DNA of 64,000 nt, from positions 3,546,395 through 3,610,394 of the forward strand of contig NZ_KQ236688.1 of the NCBI RefSeq assembly GCF_001183545.1, read 5' to 3'. The position numbers and the translations under genes were made by a program. Positions 56,555 through 62,702 of this stretch are shown here, in pieces (position 1 is the stretch's first letter; the number at the start of each line of letters is the position of its first letter). Below the pieces are notes generated by a model, which was not told where the DNA came from, made no database searches, and was given only the letters and a program-made list of their open reading frames with translations. This stretch comes from Cellvibrio sp. pealriver (lineage in GTDB: Bacteria > Pseudomonadota > Gammaproteobacteria > Pseudomonadales > Cellvibrionaceae).

Positions 56555-56590
56555 AAAACCCGCACCGGGTGACTGGTGCGGGTTTTTTTA
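56555..56590 (+). terminator. Intrinsic terminator of dsbA
   Basis: Stem AAAACCCGCACC / GGTGCGGGTTTT with an eight-base loop and a T7 tract. Confidence 0.9.
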
Positions 56591-56645: not shown

Positions 56646-58331
56646 ATGACAGTCAATTCCGGCGATAAAAATAACTGGCGAGAGAAATACCTTAATGCCC
56701 TTGATGAACAAGAACAGCTAGAGAAAAAGTTTGCTGCCCAGCAGGCCTTGCTGCGCAGTGCTTTGGTTCGGGTCAGCGTCGCTGCCGATGGGCAGGATGA
56801 AACCCTCGACCAGATCATGGCCAAGTTGCGCGAGCAACTGCGCAGTGACATCAGCGCAGTTGATATGACCAGTATCCTATCCAAGCTGGAATCTGCCGCC
56901 CTGGAATTTGAGCAGCACCGCGATCAGGGCTCGCAAGATATTCGTCAGGCGCTGATGGATATCACCAAACCCCTGCAGCAATTCAAGTTGTCGCGCGCGG
57001 TCAAAAAAGAACTGGGTGAATATCTGGCGCTGTTGCCGCAGCGCAGCAAAAAAGTACGCCTTTATCCTGCTTTGCTGCAAGAGTTGGCGAGGATACAACA
57101 GCAGGCACTGGCGGACATTGAGCAGCCAAAAAGCGGTTTGTTTGGAAAGATACTGGGCGGTAAACCTGCCGCTAAAAATACCGATCCTGACAACACAGAT
57201 ACCGAAGCCAGTGTGATTGAAAATTTACCGGCTCCGTTTCCTGATGTGTTAACGCCGGAAACATCAACTGTCCCGCAAGACACCTATCTCACCGCTGCTT
57301 ACGCAGAGCAAATCCATCAGGTGCTCAACCAGTTTTTCACGAGCCTTGAGAGCGAATCTGCCATCAAAGCCAAAGTGGAATCACTGCGCAAAAATATGGT
57401 GCAAGGCATCAATGCCCAAAATTTGGTACCGCTGCTAGGGAATCTGCGCGATCTGGTGATGGAGGCTTATCTTGCCGCCAATAATGCCTTTGCAACCTAT
57501 CTGAAAAACGTCAATCAGGAATTGGCAGAAATTTATATGTTGCTGGGCGGCGCAGTCAAAAATACTGAAAGTGAGCGCGCTGCATCGCGCAAATTACAAG
57601 ATGATGTGATGCGCGGCATGAGCGATCTGGAAAGTAGTGCCGACAGCGCCACTGACATCAATCAACTAAAAGACCATGTGAAATCCCAGCTTGGCAATAT
57701 CCGTCAAGTGATTGATCACTACCAGCAAACCGATCACGCACAACAAGCGCTGGCTGAGCAATTGCAAACGCTCGGAGCCAAAATCAAAACCATGGAAGTG
57801 GAGGCAGAAAAAAATCGCACCACGCTGGAAAACCATCGCCAAAAAGCATTGCGTGATCCGCTCACCGAATTGCCCAACCGTGAGGCTTACAACGAGCGTG
57901 CGCAAGCGGAAATACAACGCTGGCAACGTTATGGCCGGCCACTCACCATTGCCATTTTTGATATCGATCATTTCAAAAGAATTAACGATACCTATGGCCA
58001 CCAGGCAGGTGACCGGGTGATTAAAGTGATTGGGCGATCAATCGCCTCGCGTTTGCGTGAAGTGGATTTCTTTTGCCGTTACGGTGGTGAAGAGTTTGTT
58101 GCGCTCATGCCTGAAACAGACAGCCAAACTGCATTGGTCGTGCTTGAAAAAATACGTGAAGCCATTGCCAGTGCAGCATTCAATTATAAAGACCAGCCTA
58201 TGTCGATTACCTTGTCTGTAGGTGTAACTGAATTTAAAACCGGCGATATGTTGGATGTTGCATTTGATCGCGCTGACCAAGCGCTTTACACCGCAAAATC
58301 CTCGGGTCGCAATCGCTGTCACTTGGCTTGA
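56646..58331 (+). CDS. Diguanylate cyclase with long helical N-terminus (DgcH-like)
   Basis: Cytoplasmic 561-residue protein. The first 390 residues are mostly helical with coiled-coil segments and no membrane helix; they resemble the conserved N-terminal part of the Pseudomonas cyclase encoded beside dsbA. The last 165 form a GGDEF domain: DPLTELPNREAYNE, IFDIDHFKRINDTYGHQAGD, active site GGEEF, and an RxxD inhibitory site (REVD) five residues before it. Active, feedback-controlled synthesis of c-di-GMP is expected. In Pseudomonas the corresponding protein was named DgcH; position supports that, sequence comparison not done. Confidence 0.85.
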   Translation: MTVNSGDKNNWREKYLNALDEQEQLEKKFAAQQALLRSALVRVSVAADGQDETLDQIMAKLREQLRSDISAVDMTSILSKLESAALEFEQHRDQGSQDIRQALMDITKPLQQFKLSRAVKKELGEYLALLPQRSKKVRLYPALLQELARIQQQALADIEQPKSGLFGKILGGKPAAKNTDPDNTDTEASVIENLPAPFPDVLTPETSTVPQDTYLTAAYAEQIHQVLNQFFTSLESESAIKAKVESLRKNMVQGINAQNLVPLLGNLRDLVMEAYLAANNAFATYLKNVNQELAEIYMLLGGAVKNTESERAASRKLQDDVMRGMSDLESSADSATDINQLKDHVKSQLGNIRQVIDHYQQTDHAQQALAEQLQTLGAKIKTMEVEAEKNRTTLENHRQKALRDPLTELPNREAYNERAQAEIQRWQRYGRPLTIAIFDIDHFKRINDTYGHQAGDRVIKVIGRSIASRLREVDFFCRYGGEEFVALMPETDSQTALVVLEKIREAIASAAFNYKDQPMSITLSVGVTEFKTGDMLDVAFDRADQALYTAKSSGRNRCHLA

Positions 58332-58381: not shown

Positions 58382-59026
58382 ATGAAGAGTAAATGTATCA
58401 GTCAGTTGATTTTTGTAGCTGCGTTGTTCATAGCGCAATACAGCGTGGCTGCCCAATTGGAATTGCAGGTGCTCGATGATAAAGGCAATCCGCTGAAAGA
58501 CGCGGTAGTCGCATTGGTACCTGAGAAAAAAATTGATTTTACCAGTGTACCTACAGCGATTATGGATCAGCGCCAGAATATGTTTGTGCCGGGTGTATTG
58601 GCAATTCGTGTGAATACCCAAGTGCGCTTTCCCAACAGTGATGATGTGCGCCATCACGTTTATTCTTTTTCCCCTGCCAAAAAATTTGAATTGCGTTTGT
58701 ATCACGGCATGACAGCGGAGCCAGTGCTGTTTGATAAACCGGGCACAGTTGTGTTGGGTTGTAATATCCACGATTCAATGGTGGCATATATTTATGTGGT
58801 AGAGACTGACTATTTTGCGGTTACCGATAACGCAGGCAAAATCAGCCTTGCCGCTCCTGCTGGAATGTACCAGCTGCAAATCTATCATCCACAGATGGGT
58901 AGCGAGTTTCCTGAGTCAACCATCAAATTGGATGAGTCACAGCCGCTGAACAACAGTATCAGTGTGAACAATCTTGTTGCTCCCAAGGCCAGCGATGCCA
59001 GCGACGAATTTTCCGATTTATTTTAA
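58382..59026 (+). CDS. Periplasmic cupredoxin-like protein (methylamine utilization protein-like)
   Basis: Exported protein of 214 residues, start chosen at ATG 58382 (GTG 58379 is adjacent). Signal peptide MKSKCISQLIFVAALFIAQY, cleavage near VAA. Residues 26-140 are a cupredoxin fold: FPNSDDVRHHVYSFS supplies His91/His92 and VLGCNIHDSMVAYIYV supplies Cys127, His130 and Met133, the type 1 copper set. The C-terminal part (DYFAVTDNAGKISLAAPAG) looks like a carboxypeptidase regulatory-like beta domain. First gene of a four-gene cluster with a c-di-GMP protein, a DUF3034 protein and a truncated haemoglobin. Confidence 0.8.
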   Translation: MKSKCISQLIFVAALFIAQYSVAAQLELQVLDDKGNPLKDAVVALVPEKKIDFTSVPTAIMDQRQNMFVPGVLAIRVNTQVRFPNSDDVRHHVYSFSPAKKFELRLYHGMTAEPVLFDKPGTVVLGCNIHDSMVAYIYVVETDYFAVTDNAGKISLAAPAGMYQLQIYHPQMGSEFPESTIKLDESQPLNNSISVNNLVAPKASDASDEFSDLF

Positions 59027-59038
59027 GCAGGTTCTTGC

Positions 59039-61375
59039 ATGCCAAAGTTTAGTTACCTGCTCAAATTACTGACGTTTTTAATTGGTCTGGTTGTCATTCT
59101 GGAGGCTATCTCCTATCTAACCACTCGCTTGGTCATTAACAAAGCGGTTACCCAAAACGCGCGAGCTGAGTTGCTTTCGGGCGGTGAATTATTTTCCCGA
59201 ATCATGCAAAAAAATATTGAACAGTTGGCGTTGTCGGTAAAAGTTTTGACGGAAGATTTTGGTTTTAAAGATGCCGTTGCTACCAGTGATGAAAAAACAA
59301 TCGCGTCAGCATTAATCAATCACTCTGCACGTGTTAAAGCGGATATCGGCGTACTTATCACCCGTGATGGAAAATTTATTGCCAGTGATGAAATGTTTGG
59401 TCTGCAAATTACCGATGAATTTAATAGCTTGAAAACGCAGGCGCAAAATCGTGGGCAGGCGTATGACATTATTATTGTCGATGGCCGCGCCTATCAGTTC
59501 GTTATGTTTGCAGTAAAAGCGCCAGTGATTATTGGTCTTGCCGGTATGGGCTTTGAAATAAAGCAGGAATTCAGTAACGACTTGCAGCGCTTGACCGGCT
59601 TGGAAGTATCGTTTGTGATGCATGATGGGCAAGAGTTCCGTTATTTAAATGGAACACAAGAGGGGCTATCACGCGATGATTTGGTCAAACAACTTAATCG
59701 TGATGCGCAACAAGGCGAAGTGTTTGTTTATGATGATTTGATTACCTTAGTGGCACCTGCTTCGCGTCAAAACAACCATTTACTTGCGGTACTGCAAGTA
59801 CCTCTTAGTCAGGTGATGGCTCCGTTTTCGCGTTTGAATGTCCAGTTGTTTATATTGGCATTGGTATTTGCGCTACTTGCGGGTATTGCTGCATTGTTTT
59901 TAGCGCGCAGCGTGACGCGGCCAGTGCTTTTGTTGGCGGATATCGCACGTAAAATTGCCAGTGGTTTTTATACAACACCCATCGCGGTGACATCCAAAGA
60001 TGAATTGGGTGATCTGGCGCGCGCATTCATTTCCATGCAGCAAGCAATTGGTGAACGTGAACAGCAAGTCCTTTATCAATCCGAGCACGATCCACTCACT
60101 GGCTTGCCTAACCGGCTGCGTGTTTTCCCTGAATTGGAAGATGCGATTTCACGTTCGCACCCACTCAAAAAATCCGTCTACTTATTAGTGATCGATATTA
60201 AAAACTTCACCCAGATCAACGATGAGCTCAGCCAGGAAATTGGGGATGTGGTATTGCGTGAGGTGGGGCAGAAGATTGCGCGCATACTTACGCATGGCGA
60301 AGTGTTGCGCTTAGGGAGCGATGAGTTTTTGGCTATCCTGATGGCAGACAATAAAGAATCGGTCAGCGAGCTGGCAGAATTAATCCATTCCGCTTTTAAA
60401 ACGCCGCTGTTGGTAAATGGCTTGCAGGTGAGTATTGAAATCAATATTGGCCTTGCGAGTTACCCGGAAGATGCAAACTCTTCCGATTCATTATTGCGCC
60501 GCGCAAACCTTGCGTTGAATGAAGGCCGTAATAGTGAAAGGCGCACCAGTTGGTACGAGCAGGGGTGGGATGAAAAACATTTGCGCCGTTTGCATTTGTT
60601 CCGCGAATTTGAAAGCTCATTAAACAATGGTCACATCAGTTTGTATTATCAACCCAAAATCAATTTGGAAAAGCCGGGTACCTTGGGTGCTGAGGCATTG
60701 GTGCGCTGGCACCATCCGGAAATGGGTTTTATTAATCCTGAGGAGTTTATCGGTGTCATTGAAAGTTCGGGCCAGATTACACTACTGACTCGTTGGGTAC
60801 TGAAAACCGCTGTTGCCCAATTGCGCATCATACAGTTGGATGAAAAAATAACAATAACCTGTTCAGTTAATTTATCGGCATTGGATTTATTGGTCGATGA
60901 TTTACCTGCTTACGTAGCTGAATTATTACAAACATATAAAGTGCCAGCAGAGAATCTGTATTTGGAAATCACTGAAAGCGCGATTATGCGAGAGGCCGAT
61001 AAATGCCTCAACAACTTGCGACGTTTGCGCGATTTGGGCGTGACATTATCGATAGATGATTTCGGTACTGGTTATTCATCGCTATCGCAATTAAAGAAAT
61101 TACCTGTCTCTGAATTAAAAATTGATAAATCGTTTATTTTGAATTTGGATACCAGCGCAGACGACCAACTGATTGTGCGCTCAACTATCGACTTGGGGCA
61201 TACGTTGGGCTTGAGCGTAACAGCCGAAGGTGTTGAATCCGAGGCGATTAAATTATTGTTAAGGCAATACGGTTGCGATACAGCGCAGGGTTATCTTTAC
61301 AGCAAACCATTGCCCGCAAACGATTTTATCCAATGGGTTCACCGCTATTTAACGCAATTGGAATCATCATCATGA
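59039..61375 (+). CDS. Membrane GGDEF/EAL protein, probable c-di-GMP phosphodiesterase
   Basis: 778 residues. Two membrane segments (about 8-28 and 269-289) flank an extracytoplasmic sensor of about 240 residues, of the CACHE-like type (ADIGVLITRDGKFIAS, AYQFVMFAVKAPV). A HAMP domain (about 290-342) follows, then GGDEF (about 350-505) and EAL (about 520-770). The GGDEF site is GSDEF (426-430) and the metal motif is DIKNF instead of DxD, so cyclase activity is doubtful. The EAL part is intact: AEALVRW (552-554), SVNLS, LEITES, DDFGTGYSS, LKIDKSF, TAEGVE. Stop overlaps the next ATG (ATGA), showing coupling. Confidence 0.9.
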   Translation: MPKFSYLLKLLTFLIGLVVILEAISYLTTRLVINKAVTQNARAELLSGGELFSRIMQKNIEQLALSVKVLTEDFGFKDAVATSDEKTIASALINHSARVKADIGVLITRDGKFIASDEMFGLQITDEFNSLKTQAQNRGQAYDIIIVDGRAYQFVMFAVKAPVIIGLAGMGFEIKQEFSNDLQRLTGLEVSFVMHDGQEFRYLNGTQEGLSRDDLVKQLNRDAQQGEVFVYDDLITLVAPASRQNNHLLAVLQVPLSQVMAPFSRLNVQLFILALVFALLAGIAALFLARSVTRPVLLLADIARKIASGFYTTPIAVTSKDELGDLARAFISMQQAIGEREQQVLYQSEHDPLTGLPNRLRVFPELEDAISRSHPLKKSVYLLVIDIKNFTQINDELSQEIGDVVLREVGQKIARILTHGEVLRLGSDEFLAILMADNKESVSELAELIHSAFKTPLLVNGLQVSIEINIGLASYPEDANSSDSLLRRANLALNEGRNSERRTSWYEQGWDEKHLRRLHLFREFESSLNNGHISLYYQPKINLEKPGTLGAEALVRWHHPEMGFINPEEFIGVIESSGQITLLTRWVLKTAVAQLRIIQLDEKITITCSVNLSALDLLVDDLPAYVAELLQTYKVPAENLYLEITESAIMREADKCLNNLRRLRDLGVTLSIDDFGTGYSSLSQLKKLPVSELKIDKSFILNLDTSADDQLIVRSTIDLGHTLGLSVTAEGVESEAIKLLLRQYGCDTAQGYLYSKPLPANDFIQWVHRYLTQLESSS

Positions 61376-62274
61376 AACGACTATGGTGGCTATTGGTGGC
61401 CTTGGAATTGTCTGCCAGTGTTTATGTCTGTGCGGCTCATGCCGCTACACTGGAGCTGGAAAGTGACAACAAAATTTCGCGCAGCCGGTTATTGGCAACC
61501 GGTGGTGCCAGCACCATTGAAGGCTCGGCCGGTGGTGGCATTGTGCCTATGGCAGTATTGTCGGGTTACGGCGCGCAGGAAGAGCAGGGGGCGGTTGCAT
61601 TTGGTAGTTATGTCGATACTGGCGATTACCAGTTGGAAGTGATCGGTGGCAGTTGGAGCTGGCGCAACCGGATTGAATTATCCATCGCACAACAAAAACT
61701 CACGCATGATTCACTCACTGCAGCATTAAGCCTGCCGACGGATTCCATTAGCCAGCGAATTATCTCGGCCAAAGTGCGTGTAGCGGGCGATTTGATTTAT
61801 ACCCCGATGCCGCAAATCAGTGTGGGTGTGCAGCATAAAAAAAATCTGGATTTTTTAGTGCCCGGTGCGGTAGGTGCAAAAAAAGATTCAGGTACTGATG
61901 TGAATATCACTGCAACCAAATTAATTCTGGGTGGATTTTTTAATCGCAATTTATTACTCAATGGCAATCTGCGTTACACCAATGCCAACCAGACTGGGTT
62001 AGTTGGTTTTGGTGGCGATAAAAATGATGACAAAGAATTATTGCCGGAACTATCGGCGGGCGTGTTGCTCAATCGCCATTGGTTGGTTGGCACAGAGTAC
62101 CGGCAAAAGCCCAACAATTTATCGTTCATAAAAGAAGATGATTGGCAAACCGCCTTTGTCGGTTGGTTTCCTAATAAACGTATTGCTGTGGTGGCAGCTT
62201 ATGTTGATTTGGGGGAGGTGGCCACATTCAAAAACCAGACAGGTTGGTATCTCTCACTTCAGGGGAGTTTTTAA
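61372..62274 (+). CDS. DUF3034 family envelope protein
   Basis: Exported 300-residue protein, ATG at 61372 overlapping the previous stop. Signal peptide MKRLWWLLVALELSASVYVC with cleavage near AHA. The mature part is rich in short beta segments ending in aromatic residues (GSYVDTGDYQLEVIG, YTPMPQISVGVQHKKN, LILGGFFNRNLLLNGNLRYT) with a C-terminal Phe (GWYLSLQGSF), as expected for an outer membrane barrel. Family match to DUF3034 is from memory. It fits an outer membrane partner for the cupredoxin and haemoglobin. Confidence 0.75.
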   Translation: MKRLWWLLVALELSASVYVCAAHAATLELESDNKISRSRLLATGGASTIEGSAGGGIVPMAVLSGYGAQEEQGAVAFGSYVDTGDYQLEVIGGSWSWRNRIELSIAQQKLTHDSLTAALSLPTDSISQRIISAKVRVAGDLIYTPMPQISVGVQHKKNLDFLVPGAVGAKKDSGTDVNITATKLILGGFFNRNLLLNGNLRYTNANQTGLVGFGGDKNDDKELLPELSAGVLLNRHWLVGTEYRQKPNNLSFIKEDDWQTAFVGWFPNKRIAVVAAYVDLGEVATFKNQTGWYLSLQGSF

Positions 62275-62276
62275 TC

Positions 62277-62702
62277 ATGAAAAAAATATTCGCTAGTTTC
62301 CTTTTTACGCTTCTGTTGATGGCTTGTACGAATCAATCTGCGCAACAGCCGTCGCTTTATGATGCTTTGGGGCAATACGAGGGCATTAACAATATTACCC
62401 ATCAACTGATTTTGAACATTGCCAAAGATGAGCGCGTTAAGCATCGTTATAAAGGCGTGAACATGACAAAATTTAAAAAAGGAATGTCGGATTATGTCTG
62501 CGCTGCGGTGGGAGGGCCTTGCAAATACTCGGGCGATAACATGCGTTTGGTTCATGCTGGGCACAATTACACCAACACCGAATTTAATGCGATTGTGGAT
62601 AATTTGATTCTGGCAATGGAACAGCGCGGAGTCCCTGTCGTTACCCAGAACCGTCTACTCGCGATATTGGCGCGCGATTATAAAGATGTGGTTTATCAAT
62701 AA
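62277..62702 (+). CDS. Group 1 truncated haemoglobin lipoprotein
   Basis: 141-residue protein, ATG at 62277 with AGGGGAG upstream. Lipobox LLMAC with Cys17, so it is predicted to be lipid-anchored in the envelope and not cytoplasmic like most truncated haemoglobins. The globin part is LYDALGQYEGINNITHQLI, DERVKHRYKGVN, and MRLVHAGHNYTNTEFNAIVD, where His93 is the candidate proximal haem ligand. Two cysteines (CAAVGGPC) in the middle are an extra feature. It lies 2 bases after the DUF3034 gene and closes the cluster. Gas or redox partner unknown. Confidence 0.85.
   Translation: MKKIFASFLFTLLLMACTNQSAQQPSLYDALGQYEGINNITHQLILNIAKDERVKHRYKGVNMTKFKKGMSDYVCAAVGGPCKYSGDNMRLVHAGHNYTNTEFNAIVDNLILAMEQRGVPVVTQNRLLAILARDYKDVVYQ

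Follow-up and report, generated by a model that had tools for sequence, protein, structure and literature searches.

We have analysed a 64,000-nucleotide stretch of contig NZ_KQ236688.1 from Cellvibrio sp. pealriver (referred to as the window), in which four adjacent genes encode a predicted secreted copper protein (CUP), a membrane phosphodiesterase (PDE) for cyclic di-GMP (c-di-GMP), a protein of family DUF3034 and a lipoprotein haemoglobin (GLB). The four genes recur together in other genomes, and the sensor of the CUP-linked receptor is found there in front of other outputs as well. We tentatively read the set, at slightly below an even chance, as a two-part envelope receptor that would lower c-di-GMP, with CUP and the receptor as its inner part and DUF3034 and GLB as its outer part. 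Held a little more loosely still is a wider proposal, that of an envelope receptor class in which one sensor family would have a blue copper protein as its dedicated input subunit and the output would be exchanged among c-di-GMP phosphodiesterase, class III cyclase, histidine kinase and Ser/Thr kinase. Outer-membrane barrels would be further partners in this class, and in the DUF3034 branch a secreted haemoglobin would act as gas or redox receptor at the outer membrane.

By direct reading, the four genes abut at 58382-62702 with the coordinates and junctions that an earlier sequence-only reading of the window had given. Twelve bases separate CUP from PDE, PDE and DUF3034 overlap in ATGA, and 2 bases lie between DUF3034 and GLB. 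Pfam finds dCache_3, HAMP, GGDEF and EAL in PDE, all over the cut-off, and gives E-values of 1.6e-108 for DUF3034 and 5.5e-13 for Bac_globin in GLB.

Table 1. Features of the four-gene locus and of the region upstream of it, in window coordinates.
Feature	Position	Strand	Description	Basis
CUP	58382..59026	+	Secreted predicted type 1 cupredoxin	Sequence, AlphaFold model, Foldseek
Copper-ligand codons in CUP	H91 58652-58654; C127 58760-58762; H130 58769-58771; M133 58778-58780	+	Loop C-x2-H-x2-M	
PDE	59039..61375	+	Inner-membrane c-di-GMP phosphodiesterase: dCache-like sensor, HAMP, GGDEF (GSDEF), EAL	Pfam
Periplasmic sensor domain of PDE, residues 31-265	59129..59833	+	Common to CUP-linked receptors of other output	Sensor alignment and profile searches
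EAL domain of PDE, residues 523-757	60605..61309	+		Pfam
DUF3034	61372..62274	+	Predicted outer-membrane beta-barrel of 12 strands; glycine-rich segment at the N-terminus conserved	
GLB	62277..62702	+	Lipoprotein group 1 truncated haemoglobin	Pfam, PDB alignments, conservation over 77 sequences
GLB residues	Proximal His93 62553-62555	+	Also Cys75; Cys82; B10 Ile; E7 Phe; E11 Met; CD1 Tyr	
DGCcoil-GGDEF protein	56646..58331	+	Upstream of CUP; GGEEF motif by reading	Pfam
Terminator-like 12-pair stem	56555..56586	listed on -	Between dsbA and the diguanylate cyclase gene	Stem scan

Counting the window's own genome, DUF3034 was found in 18 of 369 genomes of Gammaproteobacteria, in 31 of 100 from the same family and in 39 of 398 from the phylum. 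The surroundings of these matches, without the window's genome and genomes already taken, were mapped as loci (L numbers), and a set was called full when DUF3034 had GLB, CUP and a sensor-bearing receptor all at most 6 kb away. All four genes stand together in 30/30 family, 26/35 phylum and 8/17 class loci; L070, which has split frames, is counted in the family draw, and two of the nine failing class loci (L068, L071) reach a contig edge less than 500 bases from DUF3034. The flanks are syntenic in Cellvibrio and close kin (engB, cytochrome c4, dsbA and a diguanylate cyclase (DGC) gene upstream) and different elsewhere. Because the linkage is kept in other genomes with changing flanks and orders, it is more than chance, and the four-gene set is a recurring one and not a chance neighbourhood. 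The sequence-only reading had made its proposal depend on the gene order being kept elsewhere; what is kept is the linkage, while order or strand changes in some lineages and about half of the class-draw loci are incomplete. It had also thought that similar sets may exist in other marine gammaproteobacteria, and such sets do recur in the class, and beyond it, but Cellvibrio is not evidently marine.

The set is composed of two sub-modules, DUF3034 with GLB and CUP with the receptor. GLB comes directly after DUF3034 on the same strand in 10/17 class, 30/30 family and 34/35 phylum loci. The arrangement varies (CUP-PDE, PDE-open reading frame (ORF)-CUP, or divergent) while the linkage stays: CUP-PDE and DUF3034-GLB are divergent pairs in six loci outside the class (L171, L176, L184, L186, L187, L189), and CUP and PDE come after GLB in L169. 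One locus (L177) has receptor, DUF3034 and GLB without CUP, and DUF3034 stands without the other three in L056, L062, L066, L067, L071 and L191, some of them on short contigs.

Pfam gives no cupredoxin match for CUP, and by sequence CUP matches nothing in the PDB in a meaningful way. Its AlphaFold model (pLDDT, the predicted local distance difference test, 83.7) matches domains of Cu nitrite reductase, amicyanin and pseudoazurin in Foldseek with E about 1e-5, and contains an extra C-terminal beta region in a total length of 214 amino acids. Over 94 CUPs the copper ligands are H in 94, C in 93, H in 93 and M in 90, and they are kept in all output types; the exceptions are a split frame, which leaves one gap each at C, H and M, and three weak members in which S or N replaces M. 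The predicted fold and the aligned His-Cys-His-(Met) ligands are those of a type 1 cupredoxin. At L218-L220, GGDEF-EAL receptors are accompanied by CUP-like proteins in which S or N takes the place of the axial Met; these possibly have other types of copper site. Relatives of CUP carry the NCBI name 'methylamine utilization protein'. A methylamine function for CUP found no support: the methylamine dehydrogenase light chain PF02975 had no match in the genome, in a search whose control likewise matched nowhere, and we noticed no methylamine dehydrogenase in the loci mapped, where no search was aimed at it. NirK gave only matches below the cut-off in the window's genome.

In the receptor, the EAL motif residues E, N, E, D, D, K and E, which we take to be the catalytic ones, are kept in 74/74 PDEs, the window's included. 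The window's PDE has GSDEF where a diguanylate cyclase has GG(D/E)EF, and over the 74 proteins exact GGDEF was found in 18 and GSDEF in 20. No invariant His, Cys or Met was found in the sensor over the same 74 proteins, H95 being His in 57. Direct metal sensing by the dCache domain was rejected on this ground, and any metal signal would have to be supplied by a partner.

CUP is paired with receptors also where DUF3034 is absent. The CUP profile matches 78/369 class genomes, many of the weak matches being short cupredoxin proteins, and 20 CUP places without DUF3034, mostly the strongest, were taken; the places G256, G316 and G361 and weaker ones lay outside this set. A hidden Markov model (HMM) of the sensor, for which the EAL receptors at DUF3034 loci were used, recognised the same sensor in a neighbour at 11 of the 20, with 78 to 208 bits. 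At five more (L205-L209) CUP is accompanied by a cache-like Ser/Thr kinase, which in most cases carries HAMP and in L208 lies 1.8 kb off; these kinases have weak or no sensor-HMM matches, and some of their cache matches are below Pfam's cut-off. The remaining four (L197, L204, L210, L211) have neither a sensor-bearing nor a cache-like kinase neighbour.

According to Pfam, the output beside CUP is a class III cyclase in L193, L198, L199 and L200, a histidine kinase in L195 and a Ser/Thr kinase in L060 and L205-L209; a GGDEF-EAL output is found in L192 by Pfam and in L194, L196 and L201-L203 by EAL similarity. In a further branch, PAS-GGDEF-EAL receptors stand beside weak CUPs in L219 by Pfam and in L217, L218, L220 and L225 by similarity. 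The sensor HMM gave 119-169 bits for the four cyclases and the histidine kinase and 20-45 bits for five Ser/Thr kinases, and missed the sixth (L209). The case for output exchange is made by the four cyclases, the single histidine kinase and the six Ser/Thr kinases, the last of weak sensor similarity. In a tree of 49 hand-chosen CUPs out of the 94, output changes 5 times against a least possible 3, with 8/46 inner branches strongly supported. An ORF with a hemerythrin domain (L193:2237-3274) adjoins one of the CUP-linked class III cyclase receptors on the opposite strand.

The pairing was counted from both sides over the class. The sensor profile found 36 places in 32/369 genomes, and a CUP place lies at most 4 kb from 27 of them, or from 20 of the 24 with E below 1e-20; the L220 sensor, with a weak CUP match adjacent, is an additional case. 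Conversely, 30 CUP places reach at least 100 bits, and 23 of them have a sensor place at most 4 kb away; among the seven others L207, L208 and L209 have a Ser/Thr kinase near while G256 was not among the fetched places. The best 7 or 8 candidates per genome were scored in the profile searches; the window's genome has 24 EAL places and one sensor match, with 7 of 10 candidates scored.

GLB matches Bac_globin and has the proximal HisF8 of a group 1 truncated haemoglobin, and its lipobox, by reading, is LLMAC. Over 77 GLBs the proximal His is kept in 77, Cys75 in 77 and Cys82 in 76. A simple lipobox pattern is present in 53/77. Several of the others carry a Cys near the corresponding position or an ordinary signal sequence, and for some the start of the ORF is uncertain. 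Distal positions were assigned by aligning the proteins with wild-type chain 3aq5 and with HbN. B10 is I, L, V or M with one N; E7 is F, L, V or I; E11 is L, F, M or I; at G8 most have L, I or V, but six have T, three G and one Q. CD1 is Phe in 69, Tyr in 7, among them the window's GLB, and Met in 1. The TyrB10/GlnE11 pair of truncated haemoglobin N (trHbN) NO dioxygenase is absent in 77/77.

According to PMC3493545, TyrB10 and GlnE11 of HbN are hydrogen-bonded with bound O2. PMC4720485 reports TyrB10 in 80% of cases, predicts low O2 affinity where Leu occupies E7, E11 and G8 in clade N, and counts Tyr at CD1 among the hydrogen-bond donors. From B10, E7 and E11 we infer that the haem ligand of the members with Phe at CD1 would be NO or CO rather than O2; in the window's GLB, where Tyr at CD1 is a possible hydrogen-bond donor, it could be O2 as well. 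An exclusive link of GLB to DUF3034 was rejected: the GLB profile matches 118/369 genomes, mostly with general group 1 truncated haemoglobins, and secreted ones occur also as orphans. In L235:7357-9165 a sigma-54 activator of 602 amino acids has a C-terminal Bac_globin domain, and its opposite-strand neighbour is a secreted GLB-type globin.

DUF3034 was modelled, with moderate confidence, as a 12-stranded barrel with structural matches to outer-membrane barrels, and its C-terminal residue is F, Y or W in 64/80 members; barrel and C-terminal aromatic together predict an outer-membrane beta-barrel. A crude count of hydrophobic alternation in DUF3034 gave 18, which is not above the shuffled sequences (mean 14.4, maximum 18).

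Type 1 copper protein, phosphodiesterase-only enzyme with intact EAL and degenerate GGDEF, and lipoprotein haemoglobin had all been assigned in the sequence-only reading. These assignments are supported by the kept ligands and predicted fold of CUP, by the motifs conserved over 74 PDEs, and by the Bac_globin match, proximal His and lipobox of GLB.

Correlated divergence was measured on 63 complete loci as the rank partial correlation of distances, using pairs with an EAL distance over 0.4 and 400 resamples. The values were 0.34 (0.18 to 0.47) for CUP and sensor, 0.06 for CUP and EAL, 0.23 for sensor and EAL, 0.35 (0.21 to 0.46) for DUF3034 and GLB, and 0.39 for DUF3034 and EAL. CUP correlated more strongly with the sensor than with EAL in 97.5% of the resamples for partial and 95% for plain correlations. 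The correlations lend weak support to a contact between CUP and the sensor and to the two-part structure.

For the docking of CUP, the signal, the direction of control and the route from haemoglobin to cupredoxin, we propose the following. The secreted cupredoxin would serve the membrane receptor as a dedicated input subunit in the periplasm, and its state, copper-loaded or empty, or Cu(I) or Cu(II), would alter the way in which it docks on the dCache domain. This change would be relayed to the active EAL through HAMP and the degenerate GGDEF. The DUF3034 barrel and the secreted two-cysteine haemoglobin would form an outer-membrane pair, which would either bind a small ligand (NO or CO fit B10, E7 and E11 better than O2 in most members) or pass electrons, and would thereby set the state of the cupredoxin. 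The sequence-only reading had the redox or gas state outside the cytoplasm lower c-di-GMP. Ligands and motifs are in keeping with its copper protein, phosphodiesterase-only enzyme and envelope haemoglobin, while O2 as the haem ligand has become less likely from B10, E7 and E11, though the window's GLB has Tyr at CD1. Its idea that the sensor reads an outside state fits the repeated pairing of CUP and sensor with different outputs, and the signal might be NO, O2 or copper.

Several observations weigh against such a receptor. DUF3034-GLB occurs without CUP or receptor at seven loci (L068, L069, L161, L183, L185, L188, L190), CUP occurs without a receptor of this kind at L059, L163, L179, L197, L204, L210 and L211, and 8/36 sensors (L213-L216, L221-L224) have no CUP in the stretch taken. 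In L177 the CUP position before PDE is held by a secreted-looking protein of 189 amino acids without a Pfam match (L177:11401-11970). The profiles used for the recounts contain members of the tested loci. The difference between the CUP-sensor and CUP-EAL correlations ranges from 0.01 to 0.50 for partial and from -0.01 to 0.31 for plain correlations, and general descent contributes to the correlations, because that of DUF3034 and EAL is as high as 0.39. Relatives of GLB occur as orphans, and the seven GLBs with Tyr at CD1, the window's included, may hold O2. Finally, none of seven regulator consensus patterns (FNR, NsrR, CopR-like, CueR-like, Fur, FleQ, NorR) exceeded the shuffled controls upstream of 86 CUPs.

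The separate occurrence of the parts speaks for a reading in which the redox chain comes first: haemoglobin, barrel and cupredoxin would be an envelope electron-transfer or detoxification path whose load the receptor only monitors. Besides the seven loci that keep DUF3034-GLB without a receptor, DUF3034, GLB and CUP are kept without one in L059, L163 and L179, and the CUP model matches amicyanin and pseudoazurin; cupredoxins of this fold are electron carriers. We think such a path rather unlikely, as no further neighbour family occurs in more than six of the 86 loci outside the Cellvibrio lineage, no redox enzyme family is among the ten most recurrent neighbour families listed (judged on the first 60 residues), and CUP stands beside receptors in 16 of the 20 loci without DUF3034. 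Nor is it likely, although worth keeping in view, that the receptor reports copper availability and not gas or redox state, with CUP as a copper-loaded reporter, DUF3034 as an outer-membrane copper or metallophore channel and the haemoglobin as a side activity. PcoB ranks below many unrelated barrels among the structural matches of DUF3034, DUF3034 when parted stays with GLB and not with CUP, and the CopR-like and CueR-like patterns are not enriched upstream of CUPs.

Shared regulation or descent could hold four unrelated envelope genes together in an operon without functional coupling, and both the synteny of the whole neighbourhood in Cellvibrio and close kin and the general descent visible in the distance correlations would agree with this. 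We regard it as very unlikely, since the genes stay linked under changing flanks, gene orders and strands, beyond the class too, and with different outputs. The least probable of the readings is a periplasmic NO dioxygenase in which GLB oxidises NO to nitrate. In its favour, GLB belongs to the trHbN family and has HbN among its best PDB matches, CUP could supply electrons, and Tyr CD1 in the window's GLB could hold O2. This reading of GLB was rejected on B10 and E11: in 77/77 GLBs TyrB10 is replaced by I, L, V, M or N and GlnE11 by L, F, M or I, and the low O2 affinity that PMC4720485 predicts where clade N members carry Leu at E7, E11 and G8 points the same way. The two-part receptor is the reading that we prefer.

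Upstream of CUP, the transcription unit in the window may comprise five genes, because the DGC gene lies directly upstream of CUP and behind a terminator-like stem; in the stem scan 12 sites were found against 10.9 in shuffles, which is no excess. The DGC gene is upstream of CUP in 16/29 same-family loci, and its position directly 5' of the phosphodiesterase module would make a synthesis and breakdown pair within one unit possible.

Among 1230 neighbour ORFs of the 86 loci outside the Cellvibrio lineage, the one family that recurs most, in six CUP loci without DUF3034 (L195, L197, L200-L203), is that of an outer-membrane-like protein some 410 amino acids long. Another such protein, of 297 amino acids, recurs in L192, L193 and L196, and a Porin_5-like one is present in L206; the outer-membrane character of these neighbours, Porin_5 excepted, was judged from sequence and C-terminal residues. 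The locus L163, without a receptor, has a FadL/TodX-type outer-membrane transporter gene (L163:9378-10745) after CUP-DUF3034-GLB. Regulators of one PAS-sigma54-helix-turn-helix family are found near stand-alone DUF3034 in L056, L062, L066 and L067, the Pfam assignment having been made for L056:6397-7734 and L067:615-2009. A Pyr_redox_2 protein that by reading resembles sulfide:quinone oxidoreductase follows the stand-alone DUF3034 of L056 (L056:8774-10084), and in L071 DUF3034 adjoins DabA.

Most dCache receptors and c-di-GMP phosphodiesterases have no known signal. If the proposal is true, a genetically linked copper-protein partner that recurs with four kinds of output would be a concrete and testable input for dCache receptors; DUF3034, a secreted haemoglobin group and proteins now named 'methylamine utilization protein' would gain functions, and a route would exist from copper, redox or NO outside the cytoplasm to the biofilm state. 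The sequence-only reading knew of no described mechanism, and our literature search agrees: no description of the system or its parts was among the matches listed (title and abstract), with subscription papers, where a description is possible, mostly outside the search. In the portions of text available, 'DUF3034' appears only in a retron figure legend, where it seems to mean DUF3037, and in one table line, and cupredoxin and HAMP are mentioned in one paper apart and unrelated.

The individual proteins have known relatives in structure. FapF, KdgM and autotransporter barrels have the 12-stranded outer-membrane geometry of the DUF3034 model, with identities of 4-14% in the rows listed, so that the likeness is one of fold and no family membership is claimed. 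CUP has the cupredoxin fold in common with amicyanin, whose C-x2-H-x2-M spacing is that of the CUP loop, whereas CUP has 214 amino acids with the extra C-terminal beta region. GLB is, like Mycobacterium HbN and other trHbN, a group 1 truncated globin with the proximal His kept, but it is secreted or lipidated, has two near-invariant Cys and lacks TyrB10/GlnE11.

Among complete systems, DosP and other haem-PAS gas-sensing phosphodiesterases have a related GGDEF-EAL part and a gas or redox input to a phosphodiesterase, as proposed here, whereas in the CUP-linked module the haem would be in a separate secreted protein and the sensor is a periplasmic dCache domain. The output of YfiBNR (TpbB) is a diguanylate cyclase, and no copper or haem protein is known to take part in it. 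YfiBNR resembles our proposal in its multi-protein envelope control of c-di-GMP. By analogy, the nearest known mechanism is NspS-MbaA, the polyamine receptor of Vibrio cholerae. NspS binds polyamines and is not a cupredoxin, and NspS-MbaA is not known to have a barrel or a haemoglobin. The partner in NspS-MbaA is a periplasmic substrate-binding protein; here it is a cupredoxin by predicted fold and ligands. According to PMC8967002, MbaA is bifunctional, whereas GGDEF is mostly degenerate in CUP-linked PDEs, and a periplasmic protein together with a membrane GGDEF-EAL receptor acts on c-di-GMP, which is the arrangement that we propose here.

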